Source: Gammaproteobacteria bacterium
Lineage (GTDB): Bacteria; Pseudomonadota; Gammaproteobacteria; Pseudomonadales; Alcanivoracaceae
Assembly: GCA_018067045.1 (NCBI GenBank)
Contig: JAGPVL010000006.1
Span: 1-64,000 of the forward strand
Reading direction: 5' to 3'
DNA length: 64,000 nucleotides
This document shows, piece by piece, positions 10,767 through 64,000 of the stretch; position 1 is the stretch's first letter, and each line of letters begins with the position of its first letter. The position numbers were made by a program, and so were the translations under genes. Below the pieces are notes generated by a model. The model was not told the DNA's origin. It was given only the letters and a program-made list of their open reading frames with translations, and did not search any database.

Positions 10767-16665
<5,899 letters not shown>

Positions 16666-52538: not shown

Positions 52539-53411
52539 ATGAGCATTAGAAATCTATGGACGTTTTTTATCGTCGCCATGGCCGCGCTATTACAGGGCTG
52601 CTTTGGTGGTTCAGAAGAAGATCCCAATGCGAATGGACTTGGCGGCACGGGCGACTACGAAGTTTGTAGCTACACCGACAACCTCGACTCAGAAGGTTAT
52701 GGCTCTGCGCGTATGACCTATCCTTGTGATTTGTCCGAAGGCCCGTTCCCATCAACCACCTTGACGGGCGGTTTTACTAACACCAAAGAGCAAATGGTAT
52801 GGCTTAGCGAACACCTAACCAGTCATGGATATGTGGTGCTGACCATTACGCCAACTAATATTCTCGCCAACCCACCTACGTGGAAAACCGCGCACCTTGC
52901 TGGCTTTTCTCAGTTGCAATCAGAGAATGAAAGAGCTGCCAGCCCGTTGCGAAATAAAATTGCACAAGACAAGCGCGCCATTATGGGTTTCTCCATGGGT
53001 GGCGGCGGCACATTATTGGCGGCAGGTGAGCTTGGTGAAGGTTTTGGCACCGCGATCGCATTAGCACCTTACTTAGGTTTACGCGAGCCAGATTATGCCA
53101 ATATCAAAGAGCCTATGTTGGTGCTTGGCAGCGCCGAGGATCTTCTTGCGCCAGCGTCTAGTGTTAGCAGCTATTACTACACCTTGCCAACAAACATCAC
53201 GCGCGCAATAGCCATTTTTCGCGATTCCGATCACCTTGATTGGTTCGGTTCGGGTGAGCAAACCGAAAAATCAAAATTCAAAGTGATGATCACTGCATGG
53301 CTGAATCTTCATCTGAAGGGTGATGCAAGCGCGCGAGGCTATTTCGATGGCGCCGAACATGCAGAGCATGAAGCCAATGATTGGTTTACCGAGTACGACT
53401 TTCGTCCATAG
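52539..53411 (+). CDS. PETase-like alpha/beta hydrolase lipoprotein (cutinase/polyester-hydrolase fold)
   Basis: Exported lipoprotein (lipobox LLQGC, Cys21). The mature part follows the polyester hydrolase layout: GGFTNTKEQMVWLSEHLTSHG near 77-96, then nucleophile elbow GFSMGGGGT with Ser152, ALAPYLGL, LVLGSAEDLLAP with Asp201, and His232 in DSDHLDW. The G-x-S-M-G-G-G-G stretch and order of motifs resemble PETase/cutinase-type enzymes and bacterial dienelactone-hydrolase relatives. AGGAGAG precedes the ATG. A strong terminator follows. Activity on polyesters is not shown by sequence; lipase, esterase or chlorophyllase-like action is possible. Confidence 0.78.
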   Translation: MSIRNLWTFFIVAMAALLQGCFGGSEEDPNANGLGGTGDYEVCSYTDNLDSEGYGSARMTYPCDLSEGPFPSTTLTGGFTNTKEQMVWLSEHLTSHGYVVLTITPTNILANPPTWKTAHLAGFSQLQSENERAASPLRNKIAQDKRAIMGFSMGGGGTLLAAGELGEGFGTAIALAPYLGLREPDYANIKEPMLVLGSAEDLLAPASSVSSYYYTLPTNITRAIAIFRDSDHLDWFGSGEQTEKSKFKVMITAWLNLHLKGDASARGYFDGAEHAEHEANDWFTEYDFRP

Positions 53412-53468: not shown

Positions 53469-53500
53469 AAAAAAGACCGCCTGTAAGGGCGGTCTTTTTT
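53469..53500 (+). terminator. Strong rho-independent terminator after PETase-like gene
   Basis: A 13-bp perfect stem (AAAAAAGACCGCC / GGCGGTCTTTTTT) with a 6-nt loop TGTAAG ends in seven T. It lies 57 nt after the stop and works in either direction. Confidence 0.92.
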
Positions 53501-53895: not shown

Positions 53896-53913
53896 ATTTA
53901 AAACGTTTTAAAT
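53896..53913. promoter_or_regulatory. Perfect palindrome resembling a LacI-family operator
   Basis: ATTTAAAACGTTTTAAAT is a perfect 18-bp palindrome with a central CG, the pattern of LacI-family sugar regulators. It lies about 395 nt before the cytochrome gene start in an AT-rich leader. The regulator itself is not in the window. Confidence 0.5.
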
Positions 53914-54124
53914 CGTAGATACATATTCATATCAACTTTCTATATTGAGTTAAAAAAGTTAATTTTTTGGTGATATCAATACGGCAGTCAAAATGATTTT
54001 TGTTTTATAAGGCATATTGATGTTGAATCGACACGCGTAGACAGCGCCATATTTGCTCTTTACTCTGGCCCCGGTATTAAGAAAAACAAAGCGTCGAAAT
54101 GATTTCGACGGAGGCGATACAGGG

Positions 54125-54295
54125 ATGTACTGGGGCAGGTTTAATCAATTTACTTATTTAGGTTTCTTCGTGACGTCCGTTGCGTGGTTTCTTTTGTGCA
54201 TCTCCGTATATTCTTCCCAAAAATTAACACGACACTTCTCAGAAAACGATTTCTGGGGAGATGAATGTCTGCGCATACCAAAGGAGAAACAATGA
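54125..54295 (+). CDS. Possible small membrane protein at the head of the dehydrogenase operon
   Basis: A 56-aa frame from the ATG at 54125, with GGAGG 10 nt upstream. It has one hydrophobic stretch (FTYLGFFVTSVAWFLLCISV, about 9-28) and a charged tail. Its TGA overlaps the ATG of the next gene (ATGA), a layout typical of coupled genes. The frame is open back to 54053. No family is recognised, and its real existence is uncertain. Confidence 0.35.
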   Translation: MYWGRFNQFTYLGFFVTSVAWFLLCISVYSSQKLTRHFSENDFWGDECLRIPKEKQ

Positions 54296-55734
54296 TCAGG
54301 TTAAAGCCGAGCGTTTTGGCTCCCTTCTTTATGTTAATGATGTTGTACGGGTGTGATGGAAACGTCGCTGAGGATAAGCCATCGGTTGATTCGGCCAATA
54401 TGGTTAATACAGCGAATGTTGCGCCGTCGAGCATCGACTACACGAGTGCAATGCAGTTGCATCAGATGGCGGGAGTGGAGATTAATTATGTGGCACCTCC
54501 GCCTGATATTTATCAGCCGACGAAAGTGCCGGAGTGGGCGAAAGAGCGTGATCTGAAGAGTATTCGTGAGCACGCGTGGCGTATCTGGGGCGGCATTACG
54601 GAGCGCACAGGGCAAGCGTATCCGGCTAAATCGGAGTGCGTAGCACAGGCCGATCTGGCGGTTTGGGATACATGGTATAGCGAAGCGGAGACTTTTCAGC
54701 GTGAAACGAAGTGTGAGGATGGTCAGGCGTGCCGTGAGTTCCACATTCCGCGGCAGACAGGCGGAACAGAAGTTCTATCTTTTAATAAATACAGTCAAGA
54801 ATTTCTAACATGGGTTGATCAGAATGCATTTTACGATGAGAGCACGTTTATCGAAATGAACGAGGAGATGACGAAGAATAATACGCCCACTAAAGATCGC
54901 ATTATCGGCGCTATCCCGCCGGATTCCGCCACCATGCTTAAGCCCACGTTTTGGGTGGTCAAGAGTGACGAGCCGGCAATGATGCCCTACTGGGAAGGGC
55001 CGCATCTAGACATTAATGGCACGCTGAACCCTGATCGACCGGTAGTCAGTACATGGACCAGTTTTGTGTTGTTCGATCCGACGGGAGAGGCCGATCCCAA
55101 TAAAAAATATCCAGTTGAAATTCTTGGGCCGAATGGGATCGAGAAGCATATGGTCAAGCCGAAGAAGGTCGTTAATGCGGCTGATTTTTATGCTGTTCCG
55201 CTTACTCAATCGGATGTGGACTATATCAAGAATGGGAATATCTTCACCATCGGTGGGCTCGCGCCAGATCAGCTTGCGCCTTGCGACCTAGCGTTACTTG
55301 TGGGTATGCACGTTACGACGGCAGAGTTTGATAATTGGACTTGGCAAACGTTTTGGTGGTCACCGTTCCCAGAGGACAGTAACCAGCCTACGGTAAAGCC
55401 GCCGTTCACTCATTTTAATGTGGCTACGGCATATTACTTTGATGATGCGGCTGGCAATCCGCATATCGCGTTTAACCCTTATCTAGAGCCGCCGATTGAA
55501 GGCCCCATTTTTATGAATCCTTCTGATCATGGTTCACACAGTAACTGTATGACATGCCATCACGCTGCAGCCTACCCAACCCCGAACCGAAGCGCCAATC
55601 CCGGGGAAATGCTGCAGGGTGCGTATAAGGCCACTGGCGAAATTACCGGTGCAGAGCAATGGTTTGGTGATCGCGTGAAGACTCGTTTTATGTGGGGGAT
55701 GCTGATGGAGGCGCAGATGCAAGGAAAGCGCTGA
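54292..55734 (+). CDS. Lipoprotein with a single c-type haem site (cytochrome subunit candidate)
   Basis: From the ATG at 54292 (AAGGAGAAACA upstream) a lipobox LMMLYGC anchors the protein in a membrane facing the periplasm. The long middle part is not recognised; near the C-terminus a haem motif CMTCHHA (Cys419, Cys422, His423) is present, with a further Met-rich tail. A 480-aa mono-haem lipoprotein next to a GMC dehydrogenase suggests it takes electrons from the dehydrogenase to the quinone pool or oxidase. It differs from the multi-haem c cytochromes of known FAD-glucose or gluconate dehydrogenases. An upstream in-frame ATG at 54265 would add 9 residues before the signal peptide. Confidence 0.7.
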   Translation: MIRLKPSVLAPFFMLMMLYGCDGNVAEDKPSVDSANMVNTANVAPSSIDYTSAMQLHQMAGVEINYVAPPPDIYQPTKVPEWAKERDLKSIREHAWRIWGGITERTGQAYPAKSECVAQADLAVWDTWYSEAETFQRETKCEDGQACREFHIPRQTGGTEVLSFNKYSQEFLTWVDQNAFYDESTFIEMNEEMTKNNTPTKDRIIGAIPPDSATMLKPTFWVVKSDEPAMMPYWEGPHLDINGTLNPDRPVVSTWTSFVLFDPTGEADPNKKYPVEILGPNGIEKHMVKPKKVVNAADFYAVPLTQSDVDYIKNGNIFTIGGLAPDQLAPCDLALLVGMHVTTAEFDNWTWQTFWWSPFPEDSNQPTVKPPFTHFNVATAYYFDDAAGNPHIAFNPYLEPPIEGPIFMNPSDHGSHSNCMTCHHAAAYPTPNRSANPGEMLQGAYKATGEITGAEQWFGDRVKTRFMWGMLMEAQMQGKR

Positions 55735-55813
55735 TCCGTTCTACGTTTATCGGCACCTGTCGTTTGTGAAGGTGTCGCTACATTGGGTGAAGGAATAGGT
55801 AAAGGAAAAGAGT

Positions 55814-56566
55814 ATGGATACGCCAACGTACTATCAAAATATCAAACCGCTTTTTTCGCAATATGATCGCATCAAGATGATGTACTTTGCGGACCTTTGG
55901 GATTACAAGCAGGTTAAAGCGCATGCAAAAACTATTTTGCTTTCGCTTAAGCCGCGCATGGTGGATGGCAAGCCTGATCCGGCGGGTTGGAGTGAGTTGC
56001 CGGAAGTGCATGTGATGCCGCTGTACACAGGGCCATGGCCAAAATCGCAAGTAGCGATTTTTGAAAGTTGGATTGCTGCAGGCTGTCCGGAGGGTGAGGC
56101 GCCTCCAGCTCCGCCGACGCCTGGCCCGTTGGTGGAAGGTTTTCTAACGTTGTCGAGAGTGCTAACCGGTTTTGACGACCTAAATGATAAGGTGTTGGCG
56201 CAAACATATATCAACCGGTTATTAGCCGAGTCGAATGCCGCAAAGAATAACCAACTGGAAGCGTTGCTAACGGCGTTTTCTCACAATCCGCAGGTTCTGG
56301 ATGCTGACGGAAATTGCGTTTCTTCTTACAGCCAATACCTAGCGCTGATCCAAGACATTACCGTGCTGTGGTACTTATCGAGTATCGATGGCGCACTTGG
56401 TACGCCGGAAAATAATCAATACATTCAAGGGTTGGTATGGCCTGCGATAGATGCGCACCCCATGGGCTTTGCGAATACCAATGAGCAGTTTTATTGGCGC
56501 TACAAGCCTGAAGGCGGTGACTTTACAGGTCTGCAGATTGTTGTGCCGCGTGCGGCGAAAAAATAA
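55814..56566 (+). CDS. Dehydrogenase small subunit-like protein (sorbitol/gluconate dehydrogenase small-subunit fold)
   Basis: 250 aa in two parts. Residues about 1-100 contain NIKPLFSQYDRIKMMYFADL, a WDYKQVKAHAKTIL stretch, and GPWPKSQVAIFESWIAAGCP, a heme-less domain often found in front of oxidoreductase partners. Residues about 105-245 (FLTLSRVLTGFDDL, LWYLSSIDGALGTPENN) resemble the small subunit of FAD-dependent sorbitol/gluconate dehydrogenases. Known small subunits carry a Tat signal and ferry the flavoprotein across the membrane; this one shows no signal. AAAGGAAAAG precedes the ATG, and the GMC gene starts 12 nt downstream. Confidence 0.65.
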   Translation: MDTPTYYQNIKPLFSQYDRIKMMYFADLWDYKQVKAHAKTILLSLKPRMVDGKPDPAGWSELPEVHVMPLYTGPWPKSQVAIFESWIAAGCPEGEAPPAPPTPGPLVEGFLTLSRVLTGFDDLNDKVLAQTYINRLLAESNAAKNNQLEALLTAFSHNPQVLDADGNCVSSYSQYLALIQDITVLWYLSSIDGALGTPENNQYIQGLVWPAIDAHPMGFANTNEQFYWRYKPEGGDFTGLQIVVPRAAKK

Positions 56567-56578
56567 GGGAGAGCATAA

Positions 56579-58426
56579 ATGACGGAACAGACTTTCGACG
56601 CCGTAATTGTTGGCGCAGGCATTTCTGGTGCTTTGATTGCAAATGAACTTTCCGAAGCGGGTTTCTCCGTTCTGATACTGGAGGCGGGAAGTCAGGCGGA
56701 TAATCGTCAGCAGTATATTGATACGTACTATGCGGCAGAAATAAAGACACCTGATGCCCCCTATGGCATTCAAGACGGTAGTGGTGGATCTAAGGTGCAA
56801 GCCAACCCGTCTGCTCCCCATCCTGGGGTTCCGATAGATGCGCGCTGGAAAGATCCGAATGCCTACAAAACCGATCCACGTTATTACTTCGTGCAAACAG
56901 GTTCGGTGGCATTTGGAAGTAACTATGAACGCATTGTCGGTGGCACCACGCAGCATTGGTTAGGCACGTGTTTACGTTTTATGCCGCAAGATTTTACGAC
57001 CAAAACATCGTTTGGCTTCGCCGTAGATTGGCCGATTGGGTATGCGGACCTAGAGCCGTGGTATACAGAGGCTGAATCGCAATTGGGTGTTGCTGGCAAC
57101 GTTGCCGCAGACGAAGCAATTGGTATTGAACATACGAAGCCATACCCAATGGAAGAAGTGCCTGTCTCTTATCTCGATCAGTACATGGGAAAAAAACTCA
57201 ACGGTAAGCAGGTGGGTGGGGTAACGATAACGGTGGAGTCGACACCACAGGCACGTAATACCGTCGGCTATGACAATCGGCCGCCGTGCATGGGGAATAC
57301 CAGTTGTGTGCCGGTGTGTCCGATTCAGGCGAAGTACGATGCCACTGTTCATTTGAATAAAGCTACCAAGATGCGTTTGCTCGGTTCAGGTAAAAGCAGT
57401 GTTCCAGCGAAGCTGGTCACCAAGGCTGTGGTCTATAAAGTTGACGTGGGTGCCAGTACGGATCAGGTCACGGCGTTGCATTACAAAGACTGGGACGGTA
57501 ACGATCACAAAGTATCAGGTAAGCGCTACATTCTTGCTGCGCATGCGATCGAAAACCCCAAAGTCCTCATGATGTCGCCATGGAAAAATGGCAAAACGGT
57601 TGCTAACAGTAGTGGTCAAGTGGGTAAAAACTTAATGGATCACATCTGTTTGGTGGCGTGGGGTAAAACGGCAGACGAACCTATCTATCCGTTTCGTGGC
57701 CCGCTTTCTACCTCTGGCATTCCGCAGTATCGCGGTGGCGCGACGCGCAAAACGCGTGCGGCCTACCGTGTTGAAATTGGCAACGAAGGTTGGAATTGGT
57801 CCGCCGGTGCGCCGCAAAGCAATGTCATGGAGTTGGTGACGCCAACGGGCAATGTTAAACCGTTGTTTGGGACGGCGCTGCGTAACCAACTCAACAAAGA
57901 ATGTACCCATCAGGTTCGCATCGCCATGGAGTTAGAAGCAACGCCATTGCAAACGAGCTATATCAAGCCGTCAGAAACGCACATGGATCGTTTCGGTTTG
58001 CCGCGTCCAGAGGTGCATTACGAAATTATGGGTGGCGCAAAAGATGTAACGTACGCTGGCACCGACGGTGAGTACACGGTGAAGGGGTACGTTGAGTCCA
58101 ATAACGTCGCACAGCAATTGTTCGAGCAAGCCGATATCAGCTGGGATACAACGGTGGATGCCAGCAACAGTACGCCCGGTGTTTTTATCTACAACAATAC
58201 GCGTTACCAGTACCGAGGCGCGGGTCATGTGATCGGCACACATACGATGGGCGCGGACAAAAGCAGTTCAGTGGTCGACAGTTATCAGCGTAGCTGGGAT
58301 CACAGCAATCTGTTTATTGTTGGCTGCGGTTCTTTTCCCACAACGGGCACGGCAAACCCTACTCTAACGATGGCCGCGTTGGCATTGCGCACGGCGAAGG
58401 AGCTGTGCAATGACCTTAGCAAGTAA
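56579..58426 (+). CDS. GMC-family FAD dehydrogenase with Fe-S-type cysteine motif
   Basis: 615-aa flavoprotein of the glucose-methanol-choline family. The FAD fold reads IVGAGISGALIANEL (about 10-24), with GGTTQHWLGTCLRF near 121. A cysteine motif RPPCMGNTSCVPVCPIQAKY (C237-x5-C243-x3-C247) matches the 3Fe-4S binding segment of FAD-dependent glucose dehydrogenases. The active-site His lies in GAGHVIGTHTMG (His550) and the Asn in TANPTL (Asn593). This implies oxidation of an alcohol, sugar or hydroxy acid, with electrons passed through Fe-S to the neighbouring cytochrome. No signal peptide is visible. GGGAGAG precedes the ATG; ALDC overlaps the 3' end by 17 nt. Confidence 0.88.
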   Translation: MTEQTFDAVIVGAGISGALIANELSEAGFSVLILEAGSQADNRQQYIDTYYAAEIKTPDAPYGIQDGSGGSKVQANPSAPHPGVPIDARWKDPNAYKTDPRYYFVQTGSVAFGSNYERIVGGTTQHWLGTCLRFMPQDFTTKTSFGFAVDWPIGYADLEPWYTEAESQLGVAGNVAADEAIGIEHTKPYPMEEVPVSYLDQYMGKKLNGKQVGGVTITVESTPQARNTVGYDNRPPCMGNTSCVPVCPIQAKYDATVHLNKATKMRLLGSGKSSVPAKLVTKAVVYKVDVGASTDQVTALHYKDWDGNDHKVSGKRYILAAHAIENPKVLMMSPWKNGKTVANSSGQVGKNLMDHICLVAWGKTADEPIYPFRGPLSTSGIPQYRGGATRKTRAAYRVEIGNEGWNWSAGAPQSNVMELVTPTGNVKPLFGTALRNQLNKECTHQVRIAMELEATPLQTSYIKPSETHMDRFGLPRPEVHYEIMGGAKDVTYAGTDGEYTVKGYVESNNVAQQLFEQADISWDTTVDASNSTPGVFIYNNTRYQYRGAGHVIGTHTMGADKSSSVVDSYQRSWDHSNLFIVGCGSFPTTGTANPTLTMAALALRTAKELCNDLSK

Positions 58427-59162
58427 GCGTGGATGGCTCGCGGTTGTCGCCGTGACGGCATCGACATTAATTGGCTGTACCCAATCCCAAGTCATCTGGC
58501 AGCCCGGTCCGACGATCGGGTTGCTTAATGGCGTCTATGACGGCACGGCAACTGTTGCGGAGATTAAACAGTACGGCAATCAGGGCGTTGGTCTATGGGA
58601 TAAAGCCAACGGAGAGGGGTTGATTGTTGACGGTGTATTTTATCAGATCACGGTCGATGGCGTTGCCCATATAAAACAGGACGACGACATTATGCCGTGG
58701 GTGATGATTGCGCCGTTTGAAGCGGAGCACACGATTCAGTTGCCTGCCGGGATAACACTTCGAAATATTGGCGACTATGTTGATAAGTTATTACCGACGG
58801 TAAATACCTTTTATGCGCTTCGTCTTGAAGGAGTCTTCCGGTTCGTGCAGGCGCGCAGCGTGCCAGAGCAACACAAACCTTACCCGCCATTCTCAGAAGT
58901 TGAAAAGCACGAAGTGAAGTTCGATTTCGAGAATGTACGGGGTGTGATGGTTGGATTTCGGTCGCCACCATATGTGACCAACATGAGTGTGCCCAATTAT
59001 CATGTTCATTTTCTTAACGAAGAAAAGACATCTGGTGGTCATGTTCTGCAGTTTATCACCGACGATGTTCGTTTAGTGATTGATCGTGTTGACGAATTTC
59101 ATACGGTGATTCCCACCAGCAAGGAATTTGAAGACGCGGATTTGAATAAGATCATCCAATAA
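58410..59162 (+). CDS. Alpha-acetolactate decarboxylase homologue, predicted lipoprotein
   Basis: Matches BudA/ALDC, which decarboxylates (S)-2-acetolactate to acetoin. Shared segments include GVYDGTATVAEIKQYGNQGVG, then LIVDGVFYQI, RSVPEQHKPYPPFSEV and ENVRGVMVGFRSP (overlapping about 40-185). The zinc ligands His198, His200 and His211 in NYHVHFLNEE and SGGHV have the spacing (+2, +11) of the Bacillus brevis enzyme. An N-terminal lipobox TLIGC (Cys23) predicts export and lipidation, which is unusual for an acetoin-pathway enzyme though secreted ALDCs exist. It overlaps the GMC gene and precedes the TIM-barrel gene by 21 nt. Confidence 0.9.
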   Translation: MTLASKRGWLAVVAVTASTLIGCTQSQVIWQPGPTIGLLNGVYDGTATVAEIKQYGNQGVGLWDKANGEGLIVDGVFYQITVDGVAHIKQDDDIMPWVMIAPFEAEHTIQLPAGITLRNIGDYVDKLLPTVNTFYALRLEGVFRFVQARSVPEQHKPYPPFSEVEKHEVKFDFENVRGVMVGFRSPPYVTNMSVPNYHVHFLNEEKTSGGHVLQFITDDVRLVIDRVDEFHTVIPTSKEFEDADLNKIIQ

Positions 59163-59183
59163 TGCGAAAAAAAGGACGTTGTT

Positions 59184-60113
59184 ATGAGTCAGCCCTCGTT
59201 GCACGACTATATGCAAGTCGGCATTGTTCAGTTCATGATCTATCCGCAGTGTATTGGTGGTGCTGGCCCGATTATCGAAACGGTCAGTTCACTTGCTGAA
59301 GATACCTTTTTTGATTTTCTTGAGTTGGGCCGCATTAATGGTAGTGCTGTGCGCAAGCAAGTGATCTCTGTGTTGTCGCAGGCACGGGTAAATGTTGAGT
59401 ACGATGGACAGCCATTTACTTTGTTGCCTGGTCTTGATTTGGAAGCAGAGCAGCCTAGCGATCGGCACCAAGCGATCGATGCCATGAAGCAGGCGATTGA
59501 TCAGGCTGCGGAATTCTCATCGCCGACGTGTGGCGTGATGAGCGGAAAATTCTACCCCCGAGACTTGAATGTTGATGCAGCTGTGGGTCGACTGACGGAG
59601 TCGTTGGTCGGCTTGTGTGAATACGCCCAACAATACGGAATTACGCTTTGCTTGGAGAATTTCGACCAGACGCCGTACTCGAAAGACTGCCTGATTGGGC
59701 CAACTGCTATGGCGGCAGAATTAGCGAAATCCGTTCGTGGTAGCGCCCCGAATTTCGGTTTACTTCCTGACTTGAGTCACACGCCGATCATGAATGAAAC
59801 CCCACGGCAGATGGTTGAGGCGGCCGATGGCTATATTATCCGCACCCAAATCGGTAACGGTTCCGCCAATCCATATAGCGCCCATTATGGTGATAACCAT
59901 CCCTATTTCGGTGCGCCACTAACGGGAGTGGGCATTGAGCAGCTAACCGAGTTTTTGCAGGGGTTGGTGGATGTTGGGTTCTTATCGAAAACGCATCGCG
60001 GCAAAGTCGGTTTCGAAGTGAAGCCAGCCAGTGGTGAAGATCCGCTGGCGATTATTGCGGGGTCGAAGCGCGCGTTAATACAGGCTTGGCAACGGGTGAA
60101 ATTACCGGAGTAA
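59184..60113 (+). CDS. Sugar isomerase/epimerase-type TIM barrel (AP endonuclease 2 family)
   Basis: 309-aa xylose isomerase-like TIM barrel with likely metal ligands in LCLENFD (Glu), LPDLSHTP (Asp/His), and GKVGFEVKP (Glu). These proteins isomerise or epimerise sugars and keto sugars, or act on related acids. AAAGGACG precedes the ATG. No signal peptide, so it is probably cytosolic, whereas the neighbouring ALDC is exported. Last gene of the operon; the acid phosphatase gene follows after 113 nt. Confidence 0.82.
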   Translation: MSQPSLHDYMQVGIVQFMIYPQCIGGAGPIIETVSSLAEDTFFDFLELGRINGSAVRKQVISVLSQARVNVEYDGQPFTLLPGLDLEAEQPSDRHQAIDAMKQAIDQAAEFSSPTCGVMSGKFYPRDLNVDAAVGRLTESLVGLCEYAQQYGITLCLENFDQTPYSKDCLIGPTAMAAELAKSVRGSAPNFGLLPDLSHTPIMNETPRQMVEAADGYIIRTQIGNGSANPYSAHYGDNHPYFGAPLTGVGIEQLTEFLQGLVDVGFLSKTHRGKVGFEVKPASGEDPLAIIAGSKRALIQAWQRVKLPE

Positions 60114-60226: not shown

Positions 60227-61171
60227 ATGAACAGTGTTTTTAAAGTTTCGTTTATACCCTTTGTCGCAGCATTTTTGGCGGCGGCGGGTTGTGCTCATGG
60301 TGACGGCTCGCAGGGCGCCGTTTCGTCTTCCGCGGCACGCGCAGGTCAGTTGAGTAACGTCGCCGTATCGCCGAATGACAATATGAATGCTGTGCTGTGG
60401 ATGCAAACGGCCGCGGAGTATCGCGGCAATAGTTTAGTGATCTATCAGTCGGCGGCGGGAAAACTCTCACACGTGATTGCTGCAAAAGATCATACTGCAT
60501 CGATAGAGCAGGGAGAAATGGCGGGGTGTGTCCCTGGCCACCCTTGTGCTAATGCAAAATTCAAGAAAATGCCGGCGGCTATTGTATTAGATATTGACGA
60601 AACCGTGCTGGATAACAGCGCGTATCAAGCGCGCCTGATACGCGATAATGCACAGTGGGATGCTAATACGTGGGATGAGTGGATTGCCTCTCGCGAGGCG
60701 GGAGCCATTCCCGGAGCGGTAGACTTTATTCGAGCTGTTAAAGAGTCAGGCGCGGCAGTGGTATATATAACCAACCGAAACTGTTCCGTACGCAGCAAAA
60801 ATGCAGGGGCAGATCCGTGCCCACAACGGGAGGATACTCTGGAGAATATGAAGGCACTCGGTTTCCCTTCGCTATCTGGAAAGGATTTACTCTTGCTACA
60901 AAATCAACGGCCGGAATGGGGGGCATCAGAGAAACGTGCTCGTCGAGAGTATGTTGCGAAGTCGTATCGTATAGCGATGTTGATCGGCGACGATCTCGGC
61001 GACCTTGCGCCAGACGTAAAAAACCTTCCTATTGATGGCCGTTTCGATGAGGTGAATAAGTATCGTGATCTGTACGGCGTCTATTGGTTTCAGTTAGCGA
61101 ATCCAACTTATGGCAGCTGGATGAATCCGTTTAAGGGAAAAGATAAGCGCGACTTTTTGAGATATGACTGA
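60227..61171 (+). CDS. HAD-family acid phosphatase lipoprotein, e(P4)-like
   Basis: Outer-membrane-type lipoprotein (lipobox AAAGC, Cys22) of the class C acid phosphatase/5'-nucleotidase e(P4) group. The HAD motif I is VLDIDETVLDN (Asp122, Asp124), motif II VYITNRNC, and motif IV near MLIGDDLGD. The 314-aa length and the EYRGNSLVIYQ region fit. It removes phosphate from nucleotides or sugar phosphates in the periplasm. GGAATGGAG precedes the ATG. It may be separately transcribed from the operon upstream. Confidence 0.9.
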   Translation: MNSVFKVSFIPFVAAFLAAAGCAHGDGSQGAVSSSAARAGQLSNVAVSPNDNMNAVLWMQTAAEYRGNSLVIYQSAAGKLSHVIAAKDHTASIEQGEMAGCVPGHPCANAKFKKMPAAIVLDIDETVLDNSAYQARLIRDNAQWDANTWDEWIASREAGAIPGAVDFIRAVKESGAAVVYITNRNCSVRSKNAGADPCPQREDTLENMKALGFPSLSGKDLLLLQNQRPEWGASEKRARREYVAKSYRIAMLIGDDLGDLAPDVKNLPIDGRFDEVNKYRDLYGVYWFQLANPTYGSWMNPFKGKDKRDFLRYD

Positions 61172-61882: not shown

Positions 61883-62950
61883 CTACGTTATTCCCCAGAT
61901 AGTTTTCAAGCGGTTTACCGTGTGCTTCCACTTTTCGGCTTTGGGCCGTGCCACGGAGTTTTGGTTGCCGAATAAGCCGACTTCGTTCACCGCTTGGGAT
62001 TCGGGCACGGCCTTTATCCAGCGCATACCAACGCAGTAGTCCGCCGTGTCTTCGCCATGTTCGCTGGCAAAGTAGTAATGACCTTCGAGTTGCATACCGT
62101 CTTTAACAAATTCATCAATCACGACAGCGGGTGCGGCAACTTCGCCAACAGCGACATAGCCGGTCTTCGGAACCAGTACCCAGACACGGTCGCCGGGCTT
62201 CAGCATAAACAGCGTTTTGCTGTGCCATGAGCCGCCGCCAGCCGCGAGGAAGTTGTATTTAAGCGCGTCGTTCCAAGCGCGACCGCCGGGGCTGACGCCG
62301 AAGGAGCCGTAATATTCACCGTTCCAGTCACCTTTATGGCCGGTGTTAATGGCGCGCTCTTCGGTTTCGCCGGGGTCGATCATCCAGGCGCGGCTCAGGT
62401 ATTGATTGTCGCCATCTTGAAAGACGCTAAAGAAAACCGCGTTAACGGCAACGTTAGCCTTGTCGTTTAAGTAATTAATAATCCGTTCGGTGCTGGCGTC
62501 TAGCTCGGCAGCGACCACTACCATTTGGTGCGAGCTGTTGATCTCGTCTTCCGTTGGTGCACTGCCGAACTTGTCGATAAACGCCTGATTAAAGTTTGAG
62601 TTAGATAATTGGTAACGCTGCGCAAACGATTCGTAAATCTGTACCACGCGATCAGAGCTGAGCGTTTCTACCCAAGAGGCGTAATCAATCGTCTGTGCAA
62701 CCACATCGCGGGGCGTCTTGTGTTTTTTAAGCTCAATAACGATTAGCGAGCCGGTAATATCAATGGCGATCAAGTCCAGCGGCTTGCCAAAATCTGTGTA
62801 AACCTGTCGGCCAATCAATAGCCAGTTGCCATTGAGAATGGAAATATCTTTGAAGATAAGCTCTTCGAGTAACTCTTCCGACGCCATGGTGGTGTTGCTC
62901 AAGGCTTGGGGTTGCTCGCCGATTTTCCAGATTCCGTGTTGGATGGGCAT
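61883..62950 (-). CDS. Putative PD-(D/E)XK nuclease, DUF91/NucS-like
   Basis: 355 aa. Residues about 25-110 form a restriction-like core: Glu28/29 in ELLEEL, Asp59 in GKPLDLIAID, then Glu73-x-Lys75 in LIVIELKKHKTP, and a Gln86/Tyr90 pair in AQTIDYASWVE. This order matches PD-(D/E)XK proteins related to NucS/DUF91. The C-terminal 200 residues contain a beta-rich region (FLAAGGGSWHSKTLF, DRVWVLVPKTGYVAVGEV) and a YCVGMRWIKAV strand, not recognised, perhaps for DNA or ligand binding. AAGGA precedes the ATG and overlaps the end of the HEPN gene, which stops 2 nt upstream. Together they are a tight two-gene unit. Confidence 0.75.
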   Translation of the reverse strand: MPIQHGIWKIGEQPQALSNTTMASEELLEELIFKDISILNGNWLLIGRQVYTDFGKPLDLIAIDITGSLIVIELKKHKTPRDVVAQTIDYASWVETLSSDRVVQIYESFAQRYQLSNSNFNQAFIDKFGSAPTEDEINSSHQMVVVAAELDASTERIINYLNDKANVAVNAVFFSVFQDGDNQYLSRAWMIDPGETEERAINTGHKGDWNGEYYGSFGVSPGGRAWNDALKYNFLAAGGGSWHSKTLFMLKPGDRVWVLVPKTGYVAVGEVAAPAVVIDEFVKDGMQLEGHYYFASEHGEDTADYCVGMRWIKAVPESQAVNEVGLFGNQNSVARPKAEKWKHTVNRLKTIWGIT

Positions 62951-62952
62951 GG

Positions 62953-63717
62953 TTAATCCTTGTTATTGCGGGTCGCTACGGGCCGTTCGCTGCTGCTGTA
63001 AATCTGATTAATAAACTCTGAAACCATTTCAAAGGTGCCGAGCACGTGATTGTGAAGTGTGGTGCTGCCGTGGTTGTAGTTATTTCGAGTCTTGTTGGTG
63101 TGAATAATCAGGTGTTGGATATGGTTATAGTTGGGGTCTGGCGGTAGTTGTTTGAACTCGATATCGGGCGTTTCAATCTCGGTGGATCCTGTTCTCTGCA
63201 TTTCAGCTATGGCCCACAGAGTCTGCTCGTCCCTAGCTTGATCGTAAGCCAGACTGCTAGCGTGTCGGTGCCATTGGCTGAAGCCCTCATTTCGGACAAG
63301 TTGTTGGTCCCGACAATATTCCATCAAGGTCTTCATGCCAATTCGGATGCCGCCTCTCTTGCCCGTCTTTGCTTTATATTCGCTGTTGCGCTGTTTGATG
63401 TACCGCTTTATCTCCTTATCGCCAATACGCTCTTTCATGCCCAGTTCCAGTGAGTTGAGCGCATGTGCTTCGGCGATATTAAAGAAGCGGTATTCAAACC
63501 AAGCGTAGAGATATAGGTTGCGGGCGACGTCATATTGAATGGCGACGTTTTCAGCAACGTCATCGTTCAGTGAGTAGTGTTCGATCTCGGCGTAGTGGTC
63601 CTCTAATGTAATGCGTCGCCACTCACCAGTTTTCCGATCGATTTGCACACAATGGGTGTTGCGAATGTCTGTCTTGCACAGTTCAGCAAGGGGTTGTAAG
63701 CCATCTCTTTCCGCCAT
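62953..63717 (-). CDS. Putative HEPN-domain protein with RX4H motif
   Basis: 254 aa from the ATG at 63717 (GGGAAAGG upstream, spacing loose; a GTG start at 63759 would add 14 residues). An alpha-helical stretch ARNLYLYAWFEYRFFNIAEA and then LNSLELGMKERIG (about 65-99) has the feel of HEPN helices. Near the C-terminus TNKTRNNYNHGSTTLHNH contains Arg211-x4-His216 preceded by Asn, the HEPN ribonuclease RX4-6H motif, followed by a helix GTFEMVSEFINQIY. The middle (RGGIRIGMKTLMEYCRDQQL) is basic. An RNase toxin or abortive-infection effector is the leading guess; overall identity with a known family is not visible. Confidence 0.6.
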   Translation of the reverse strand: MAERDGLQPLAELCKTDIRNTHCVQIDRKTGEWRRITLEDHYAEIEHYSLNDDVAENVAIQYDVARNLYLYAWFEYRFFNIAEAHALNSLELGMKERIGDKEIKRYIKQRNSEYKAKTGKRGGIRIGMKTLMEYCRDQQLVRNEGFSQWHRHASSLAYDQARDEQTLWAIAEMQRTGSTEIETPDIEFKQLPPDPNYNHIQHLIIHTNKTRNNYNHGSTTLHNHVLGTFEMVSEFINQIYSSSERPVATRNNKD

Positions 63718-64000
63718 TATGCAACTACCTTTCCCGCCTCGATATAGCCACGGCGACAATTAAGTTGATCGTCGGGTGTCTTTGGGTTATCGAATTTATT
63801 CACCTAAATCGTGCCCCTACGCCTTTAAACTCATCAACAAAAGCGGCGATCTTTTCGAAAACGATTTGCTTCTCGGATTAAAGTTATGGGTTCCCTAGCT
63901 ATTTTTTCCTACTATTGATATGAAATTTATCATCAATTCAGCTCAAATTTTTGAACGTAACTGCTTAATGTATTTGCCTCTTTCACTTCATCATGAGGAA
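63718..64000. other. Upstream region of the HEPN gene with right flanking repeat
   Basis: 283 nt without a gene. Contains AT-rich sequence, the right flanking repeat at 63873-63903, and probably the promoter of the two-gene module. The window ends before any feature to the right can be judged. Confidence 0.6.
63873..63903 (+). repeat. Right flanking repeat of the nuclease/HEPN module
   Basis: TCGGATTAAAGTTATGGG followed by TTCCCTAGCTAT. Same orientation as 61833-61863, bracketing a block of about 2.04 kb that contains both genes. Confidence 0.6.

Follow-up and report, generated by a model that had tools for sequence, protein, structure and literature searches.

A putative operon combining a leaderless GMC dehydrogenase module with an acetolactate decarboxylase-family lipoprotein and a TIM-barrel protein in a gammaproteobacterium

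Acetolactate decarboxylase (ALDC) is an enzyme of acetoin formation that acts on alpha-hydroxy-beta-oxo acids, and no member of the ALDC family is known to us to act outside acetolactate metabolism. A gammaproteobacterial locus, located in the 64,000-nucleotide stretch of DNA analyzed here (the window), raises the question of what a protein of this family might be doing in an operon that lacks an acetolactate synthase (ALS) and also encodes a GMC dehydrogenase. Five tightly packed genes, all on the plus strand (54292-60113 of the window), code in order for a mono-haem cytochrome lipoprotein, an FAD-SLDH-type small subunit, a GMC dehydrogenase, an ALDC lipoprotein and an AP_endonuc_2 TIM barrel. 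These are the genes and the order given in the earlier note, whose family names are borne out by Pfam and NCBIfam matches and whose account of tight spacing agrees with the intergenic distances calculated from the coordinates, i.e. 79, 12, -17 (the GMC and ALDC genes overlap by 17 nt) and 21 nt from 5' to 3'. Genes packed in this manner are probably cotranscribed as one operon. Between the operon and a PETase-like gene upstream of it sits a terminator-like element (53470-53499), a 12-bp inverted repeat with a T run at its end, recognized by eye and absent from the pattern-scan listing. A perfect 16-bp palindrome, TTTAAAACGTTTTAAA (53897-53912), coincides with the start chosen in the earlier note (53896) and lies 379 nt 5' of the first gene, where it might possibly be an operator; a single exact copy was found in the genome, and 5 genomic sites match it with no more than 2 mismatches, as against 4 for the reversed control.

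The catalytic subunit of the dehydrogenase (615 aa; 56579-58426, plus strand) comprises the Pfam domains GMC_oxred_N and GMC_oxred_C. Its closest relatives of solved structure are the FAD glucose dehydrogenase 6a2u (1.1e-86) and the fructose dehydrogenases (FDH) 8k6k (1.4e-73) and 7w2j (2e-73), and its best NCBIfam family is pyranose oxidase, albeit far under the cut-off (70.5 vs 544.9). PMC6719666 identifies Cys212/Cys218/Cys222 of the Burkholderia cepacia FAD glucose dehydrogenase (BcGDH) as 3Fe-4S ligands, His105 as FAD-linked and His476/Asn519 as catalytic; these align, respectively, with C237/C243/C247, H126 and H550/N593 of the window protein, which is predicted to be of the FAD/3Fe-4S type that hands electrons to cytochromes. 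Asn474/475 of BcGDH, which correspond to the cellobiose dehydrogenase residues in contact with O2 (through a main-chain carbonyl) and O3 of the ligand, are not kept; Ala548/Gly549 stand in their place. Neither a signal nor an earlier in-frame start was found in this protein.

The small subunit (250 aa; 55814-56566, plus strand) matches PF12318 (FAD-SLDH) with a score barely over the cut-off (25.1 vs 24.2 bits), the only other Pfam match being TTC7_N below its cut-off. A profile built from 34 of its relatives finds the FDH small subunit (E 0.0012), and residues 104-239 of its structural model (mean pLDDT 68.9) align with the gamma subunit of 6a2u (Z 8.2, rmsd 4.0, 102 aligned) and with 8jej (Z 8.1, rmsd 4.0, 111 aligned), after which the matches drop to Z 3.0; Foldseek's own E-values for the matches of this model are 0.27-0.39. 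The modeled fold appears to match those of the BcGDH gamma subunit and the FDH small subunit. Again no signal peptide and no earlier in-frame start were found, and with them the TAT signal that defines the hitchhiker in FAD-GDH/FDH complexes is missing. According to alignments, residues 1-95 (55814-56098, plus strand) form an extra N-terminal domain fused to the small subunit. The sequence from L031 aligns with the whole protein from residue 3, and the N-terminal domain alone has no match at 1e-3 in 80 GMC loci (a count in which L087 and L088 share sequence). In a Bradyrhizobium plasmid this domain (E 2e-3; 3e-9 in a three-locus search) is a separate 77-aa ORF situated 18 nt behind the gene for a mono-haem protein.

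The first gene of the operon (54292-55734, plus strand), whose ATG is preceded by AAAGGAGAAACA and whose listed ORF begins 27 nt earlier (54265), codes for a 480-aa lipoprotein, in which inspection by eye shows a lipobox-like LYGC with Asp after it, and which has a single CxxCH haem-c motif, CMTCH, from residue 419. Pfam and NCBIfam give no match to it at E up to 1, and it has no match at 1e-3 in 89 GMC loci. It is 28% identical to a Sinorhizobium plasmid protein; the Bradyrhizobium mono-haem protein, 34% to the latter, matches it only at E 0.009.

The ALDC-family protein (250 aa; 58410-59162, plus strand) has the lipobox LIGC (by eye), matches PF03306 at 1.7e-65 and passes the equivalog cut-off of TIGR01252 (204.1 vs 180.65 bits). 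Its H198/H200/H211 correspond to the zinc ligands His194/His196/His207, and its E69 and R149 to Glu65 and Arg145; all 20 aligned ALDC sequences share these residues. The departures concern Thr58 and Glu253 of the C-terminal tail. At the commonly conserved Thr position the window protein, alone among the 20 sequences, has a Leu (Leu62), and it ends before the C-terminal tail and is thereby missing the tail Glu. The latter is present in 12 of the 20 sequences, as is the combination of Thr and tail Glu, and its absence from the other 8 means that this loss is not peculiar to the window. All four ALS-linked ALDCs (L130-L132 and L143) have both residues, whereas the window protein has neither. Its branch is long (2.02), as are those of L142 (2.3) and L146 (1.86). 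Because the operon includes no ALS, and because the pocket and tail depart from those of the four ALS-linked proteins, the protein may plausibly act on something different from acetolactate. Acetolactate is itself still a possible substrate, since the genome encodes two ALSs elsewhere, an IlvI-type and a PRK08322-type, both over the cut-off and neither located on the window's contig (C4).

The last gene (59184-60113, plus strand) encodes a 309-aa isomerase/epimerase-like TIM barrel of the AP_endonuc_2 family (PF01261; 7.8e-15), which includes ketose epimerases. No NCBIfam equivalog reaches its cut-off, the best being IolO (5.3e-6; 25.9 vs 300 bits), and no NCBIfam match to hydroxypyruvate isomerase was found at E up to 1; its relatives are only 23-36% identical and score far under every equivalog cut-off. 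The class comprising IolO, hydroxypyruvate isomerase and ketose epimerases has an E/D/H/E metal-site pattern, of which E158, D196 and E278 are present in the window protein with Gln222 at the position where three aligned relatives have His; H199 is present too, and in a Thermus relative Lys takes the place of the first Glu. No signal or earlier in-frame start was found. A relative in Enterococcus gilvus is encoded in an operon with the order glyoxylate-carboligase-like / TIM / 2-hydroxyacid dehydrogenase / glycerate kinase (carboligase 636 vs a cut-off of 791; glycerate kinase over cut-off), and the gene for a Klebsiella relative adjoins one for a 2-hydroxyacid dehydrogenase. Near the Thermus relative, the third-best NCBIfam matches of the neighboring genes are IolM and IolN, all weak and under cut-off. 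According to PMC12632266, IolO and its analogue LguG epimerize 5-keto-L-gluconate.

A set of 89 related GMC loci, 85 of them distinct, gave no ALDC or TIM match, and 22 ALDC loci gave no GMC or TIM match; the conserved neighborhood that the earlier note had put forward as a check was thus negative in every sample. None of the other loci examined combines the dehydrogenase with ALDC and TIM, and the link between the two modules accordingly rests on one genome. Cassettes of cytochrome, small subunit and GMC, by comparison, are common: 64 of 80 GMC loci have a cytochrome of another family and a small-subunit match on the GMC strand.

As the cytochrome and ALDC have lipoprotein signals, and the small subunit, GMC and TIM have none, the steps of the operon may take place in different compartments, and a linear route from GMC through the exported ALDC to TIM would therefore cross a membrane. 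We tentatively favor, as a possible if doubtful reading, that a respiratory dehydrogenase module has recombined with two further proteins, an exported ALDC put to a new use and an isomerase of keto acids. The first module (cytochrome lipoprotein, small subunit and GMC) would be a leaderless offshoot of the FAD-GDH/FDH-type FAD/3Fe-4S dehydrogenases, in which the FAD would oxidize a hydroxyl and the 3Fe-4S cluster would relay the electrons to the mono-haem lipoprotein, the latter perhaps being the docking partner of the small subunit's extra domain. The second, the re-purposed ALDC and the TIM-barrel isomerase, would act on the oxidized product, for which an alpha-hydroxy-beta-oxo acid (C3 to C6) is the likeliest candidate; ALDC would decarboxylate this acid, and TIM would interconvert its 2-hydroxy-3-oxo and 3-hydroxy-2-oxo forms, or epimerize it, in the way that hydroxypyruvate isomerase and IolO handle acids of this kind. 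That the respiratory GMC feeds a neofunctionalized ALDC directly, with a polyhydroxy acid converted to a 3-oxo acid, zinc-dependent decarboxylation following and TIM acting third as keto-acid isomerase, we consider unlikely. If true, sugar acids would be oxidatively decarboxylated in unphosphorylated form at the cell envelope, in a process linked to electron transport, and an ALDC-family enzyme would be working outside acetolactate metabolism.

The earlier note had GMC oxidize an aldonic or other 2,3-dihydroxy acid at C3, ALDC yield a ketose and TIM epimerize or isomerize it, as an unphosphorylated parallel to the 6-phosphogluconate dehydrogenase reaction. Its substrate class is plausible in view of the altered ALDC, whose tail and Thr position would allow a new substrate, and of the TIM relative in the glyoxylate-carboligase-like operon; the chemistry of the ALDC and PF01261 families fits, and the closest solved GMC relatives oxidize sugars. 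However, the linkage is not conserved in the GMC and ALDC loci, the signal of the ALDC places it toward the periplasm or outer membrane while TIM is signal-less and the operon has no transporter gene, and nothing bears on C3, the O2/O3-contact equivalents being Ala and Gly; nor does anything point to gluconate or galactonate in particular. We regard this route as distinctly improbable, and give the same low credence to an acetoin/diacetyl system in which the exported ALDC turns leaked acetolactate to acetoin, the dehydrogenase oxidizes acetoin or butanediol with electrons going to the respiratory chain, and TIM is incidental. The ALDC score above the TIGR01252 cut-off, the two ALSs of the genome and the frequency of ALDC-family proteins that have a signal-like N-terminus but lack an ALS match nearby (13 of 18 extracted sequences) are consistent with such a system, but the placement of both ALSs off the contig, the missing Thr and tail Glu, and the sugar dehydrogenases closest to GMC argue against it.

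Bacterial glucoside-3-dehydrogenase and C-glycoside pathways oxidize C3 and then eliminate from or isomerize the 3-keto product; a GMC protein paired with a PF01261 TIM barrel occurs in 3-keto-sugar metabolism, where the small subunit is of the gluconate-2-dehydrogenase type. Here GMC might by analogy oxidize a pyranoside at C3, TIM eliminate from or isomerize the 3-keto product and the ALDC-like lipoprotein perform a related enolate reaction. That pairing and the pyranose oxidase match of GMC, far below cut-off as it is, speak for this; yet the small subunit is of the FDH/GDH type (PF12318) with no Pfam match to the gluconate-2-dehydrogenase type, the five operon proteins gave no Pfam or NCBIfam match to glycoside hydrolases or sugar transporters, and a literature search on the pairing gave nothing relevant. 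We hold the scheme to be quite improbable. Least probable, in our view, is the modification of a specialized metabolite or peptide, with the cytochrome and N-terminal domain as a generic redox partner of tyrosinase, RiPP or ferritin-like oxidoreductase clusters and ALDC and TIM acting on the same metabolite. The Sinorhizobium relative of the cytochrome adjoins Nif11/radical-SAM RiPP genes, the more distant Bradyrhizobium one tyrosinase and S8 peptidase genes, and GMC relatives adjoin PF12902 ferritin-like proteins in L098 and L155, but Pfam and NCBIfam revealed neither a precursor peptide nor a synthase or radical SAM gene in the operon.

If the ALDC family has a second function, a good candidate for it is a variant with its zinc site kept and conserved pocket and tail residues missing, encoded beside a respiratory dehydrogenase. 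The locus also draws attention to two neglected groups, namely the ALDC-family proteins with export-signal-like N-termini away from any ALS match, and the cytochrome/small-subunit/GMC cassettes in which the small subunit mostly has no TAT signal, the feature that underlies the hitchhiker role.

Among known systems, IolO/LguG and hydroxypyruvate isomerase share PF01261 with the window TIM, and one TIM relative takes the place of hydroxypyruvate isomerase in the glyoxylate-carboligase-like operon, although the window protein scores far under the IolO cut-off and Gln replaces the His of its relatives. With acetolactate decarboxylase (TIGR01252; 4bt2, 6j3d) the window protein has in common the zinc His, the Glu65/Arg145 equivalents and a score over the family cut-off, but it differs in the Thr58 to Leu change, the absent tail Glu, the lipoprotein signal and an operon without ALS. 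The B. cepacia FAD-GDH (6a2u, 8grj) and Gluconobacter FDH (7w2j) have the same 3Fe-4S Cys, FAD-linked His and catalytic His/Asn, and on both sides genes for a gamma-type small subunit and a haem-c partner adjoin; the window small subunit, in contrast, has an extra N-terminal domain and no TAT signal, its partner has one haem motif instead of three, and Asn474/475 are replaced by Ala/Gly. In the leaderless cassettes of Pseudomonas and others (L019, L020; 64 of the 80 GMC loci) the cytochrome does not match that of the window, the N-terminal domain alone has no match at 1e-3 and the available flanking sequence gave neither an ALDC nor a TIM match, whereas the cytochrome/small-subunit/GMC order is the same, the small subunit likewise has no clear signal and the GMC proteins are 38-46% identical.

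The five genes that the earlier note had described as one operon do lie on a single strand in the order it gave, spanning window 54292-60113: a mono-haem cytochrome lipoprotein, a dehydrogenase small subunit, a GMC dehydrogenase, a lipoprotein of the acetolactate decarboxylase (ALDC) family and an AP_endonuc_2 TIM barrel. An AAAGGAG ahead of the ATG at 54292 marks the most likely start of the cytochrome gene, and the gaps between successive genes (79, 12, -17 and 21 nt) form a packing from which we infer co-transcription. Neither codon usage nor G+C gave a foreign-DNA mark of recent acquisition for the operon. Upstream of it lie a terminator-like inverted repeat recognized by eye (53470-53499) and a perfect 16-bp palindrome (53897-53912). 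A reading of the latter as a LacI-type operator found no support beyond the uniqueness of the exact copy in the genome; at two mismatches there are 5 sites against 4 for the reversed control.

The gene directly upstream (52539-53411) encodes a PETase-like hydrolase (PF12740, 3.1e-31) with a lipobox seen by eye, which scores under the NCBIfam BHET hydrolase cut-off. Downstream, on the same strand, is a lipoprotein e(P4)-type acid phosphatase (60227-61171; PF03767, under the TIGR01533 cut-off), for which a search of low power gave no match in seven family genomes, including the only one of the same genus. Beyond it, a minus-strand gene pair (61883-63759) combines a protein with a NucS_C domain (25.2 bits against a cut-off of 24) and a weak match to Shedu SduA (E 0.044) with a second protein that has no family match; this is a possible defence pair.

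The conserved neighbourhood by which the earlier note had proposed to check its reading was not found. Searches by tblastn gave no ALDC or TIM match in 89 GMC loci, 85 of them distinct (L019 duplicates L049, L020 duplicates L042, L021 duplicates L066, and L087 and L088 share sequence), and no GMC or TIM match in 22 ALDC loci. The GMC alignment scan covered the best 80 of 263 relatives, each with at most 7 kb of flank, and some loci are short (3656-6291 bases in the shortest four), so that partners lying slightly farther out would escape notice. The ALDC sample, comprising 20 loci and two plasmids, several of them shortened by contig ends, contained no match at 1e-5 to the GMC protein, the TIM barrel, the small subunit or a cytochrome of the window type. 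A single-protein scan of genome contigs with the GMC protein returned no relative; with the own genome counted throughout, GMC matches occur in 5 of 369 class genomes at 1e-60 and 3 of 293 order genomes at 1e-80, and ALDC matches in 6 of 57 relatives at 1e-3 and 16 of 369 class genomes at 1e-20. Among the open-access papers covered, none linked an acetolactate decarboxylase with a GMC protein.

The window ALDC scores over the TIGR01252 cut-off and, like all 20 aligned sequences, keeps the three zinc-ligand His together with a Glu and an Arg. It is the only sequence with Leu at the position of Thr58 (4bt2 numbering; Thr in 13 of 20), and it alone carries Gln where the other sequences have Phe, Thr or Ile. 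It also stops short of the C-terminal tail. The tail Glu occurs in 12 of the 20 sequences; all 12 ALDCs with this Glu have the Thr, and 7 of the 8 lacking it, the window protein included, have another residue there. Both Thr58 and the tail Glu (Glu253) of the 4bt2 enzyme presumably have functional roles. The alignment leaves out the ALDCs of L138, L144 and L145 because the motif filter missed them. The Thr and tail Glu are both missing in the ALDCs of L142, L146 and L148-L151. The window ALDC forms a long branch (2.02), as do those of L142 (2.3) and L146 (1.86), in a poorly resolved tree where 4 of the 17 inner branches have good support.

An acetolactate synthase (ALS)-like gene is found near the ALDC in 4 of the 22 loci. 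By hydrophobicity, 13 of 18 extracted ALDC sequences have a signal-like N-terminus (L138 and L144 fall outside this count because the motif filter missed them), and an ALS match is found in none of these 13 loci (L133, L134, L137, L139, L141, L142 and L145-L151), four of which (L148-L151) come from closely related members of a single genus. The own genome encodes two acetolactate synthases, of the IlvI and PRK08322 types, on contigs other than that of the window. For an archaeal ALDC homologue, which the relevant part of PMC4836417 does not describe as exported, proton consumption has been proposed.

The window TIM barrel is rare: its own genome was the sole match among 369 class genomes at 1e-15 and among 378 phylum genomes at 1e-25. 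Relatives were found on plasmids of Thermus (36%), Enterococcus gilvus (33%) and Klebsiella (25%), all three of which have His at the position of Gln222 in the window protein. The E. gilvus gene occupies the place of a hydroxypyruvate isomerase, flanked on one side by a glyoxylate-carboligase-like gene (636 bits against a cut-off of 791) and on the other by those for a 2-hydroxyacid dehydrogenase and a glycerate kinase. The Klebsiella gene adjoins a 2-hydroxyacid dehydrogenase gene on the opposite strand, and the Thermus neighbours include a zinc dehydrogenase and a protein of the creatininase family, for which IolM and IolN rank third among the matches, all under cut-off. We lean towards reading these contexts, of which that of E. 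gilvus alone is clear, as pointing to hydroxy-keto acids, which form the substrate class of ALDC.

The earlier note had envisaged oxidation of an aldonic or other 2,3-dihydroxy acid at C3 by the GMC protein, followed by decarboxylation and isomerization or epimerization. The substrate class it named is chemically coherent and draws mild support from the neighbourhoods of the TIM relatives and from the residue changes in the ALDC. In the reading that we favour, though with rather low confidence, the respiratory dehydrogenase would form an alpha-hydroxy-beta-oxo acid, which would then serve as substrate for an exported, re-purposed ALDC and for a keto-acid isomerase.

The small subunit carries an N-domain (residues 1-95) that is absent from aligned relatives except that of L031, a Deltaproteobacteria MAG locus (28% over 237 residues to the whole window protein); searched alone, the N-domain had no match at 1e-3 in the 80 GMC loci, L031 included. 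On a Bradyrhizobium plasmid its homologue is a separate gene for a 77-aa leaderless protein (E 2e-3 in the plasmid search, 3e-9 in a three-locus search), placed 18 nt behind that of a mono-haem protein whose N-terminus resembles a signal (L160:3793-5216; the same cluster includes tyrosinase and S8 peptidase genes). Over 148 residues, this mono-haem protein shares 34% identity with a Sinorhizobium protein related to the window lipoprotein; its match to the lipoprotein itself is no better than E 0.009. The position of the N-domain gene behind a mono-haem gene of this related family suggests that the N-domain may be a partner of the cytochrome family of the window lipoprotein, and its fusion may tether the dehydrogenase to the cytochrome. 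A haem-less cytochrome-c fold, considered for the N-domain, found no support: the two-sequence model was poor (mean pLDDT 60.7) and Foldseek gave no match. Residues 1-103 of the whole small-subunit model returned a single row, IL-15 at Z 2.1.

A different recurring cluster places related GMC and small-subunit genes beside PF12902 ferritin-like proteins (L098:6456-13683, L093:6370-13479 and L155:8563-16793), the family being assigned by Pfam in L098 and L155 and by eye in L093; the L098 cluster also has a PF04185 phosphoesterase. In L155, a neighbouring gene (14301-15179) whose product by eye resembled an acetoacetate decarboxylase matched no Pfam family, and the suspicion was dropped.

The nearest PDB entries to the window GMC protein are the Burkholderia FAD glucose dehydrogenase (BcGDH, from B. 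cepacia) and the Gluconobacter fructose dehydrogenase (FDH). Its Cys237, Cys243 and Cys247 align with the 3Fe-4S ligands of BcGDH, His126 with the FAD-linked His105, and His550 and Asn593 with the likely catalytic pair His476 and Asn519, roles taken from parts of PMC6719666. Asn475 and Asn474, which the same parts of that paper describe as potentially able to recognize glucose, are replaced by Gly549 and Ala548 in the window protein and likewise in the four aligned relatives. The window enzyme has the BcGDH/FDH architecture, yet a role as glucose dehydrogenase is improbable. Its small subunit lies just over the PF12318 cut-off, and a profile search retrieves the FDH counterpart at 0.0012. Residues 104-239 of its model (34 sequences, mean pLDDT 68.9) superpose on BcGDH gamma (Z 8.2, rmsd 4.0, 102 aligned) and the FDH small subunit (Z 8.1, rmsd 4.0, 111 aligned), the following rows having Z of 3.0 or less; Foldseek's own E-values are weak (0.27-0.39).

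Cassettes with a cytochrome of another family and a small-subunit match on the GMC strand occur in Pseudomonas and other groups, in 64 of the best 80 of 263 related GMC loci (L031-L110; for example L032:5215-8827 and L049:2772-6580), with a median of 6 nt from cytochrome stop to the start of the small-subunit match. Lack of a small-subunit signal seems common to this large group, though the cytochrome looks exported: among 67 CxxCH-containing ORFs upstream, some of them doubtful as cytochromes, 59 have a signal-like N-terminus from some start when the most hydrophobic is chosen. Just one of 40 non-redundant small subunits (L108) has a twin-arginine signal by eye in its first 30 residues, starts being taken at the nearest ATG, which biases towards short N-termini. 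Against this, the N-terminus from some possible small-subunit start passes the hydrophobicity threshold in 11 of 70 loci, and an RR motif lies within the upstream open frame in 8 of 70; among these, several possible starts fall within the cytochrome gene. In BcGDH, according to portions of PMC9727119 and PMC6719666, the small subunit acts as a TAT hitchhiker, and the electron partner is a three-haem protein; unlike these, the window small subunit has neither a signal nor an earlier in-frame start, and its partner lipoprotein has a single CxxCH.
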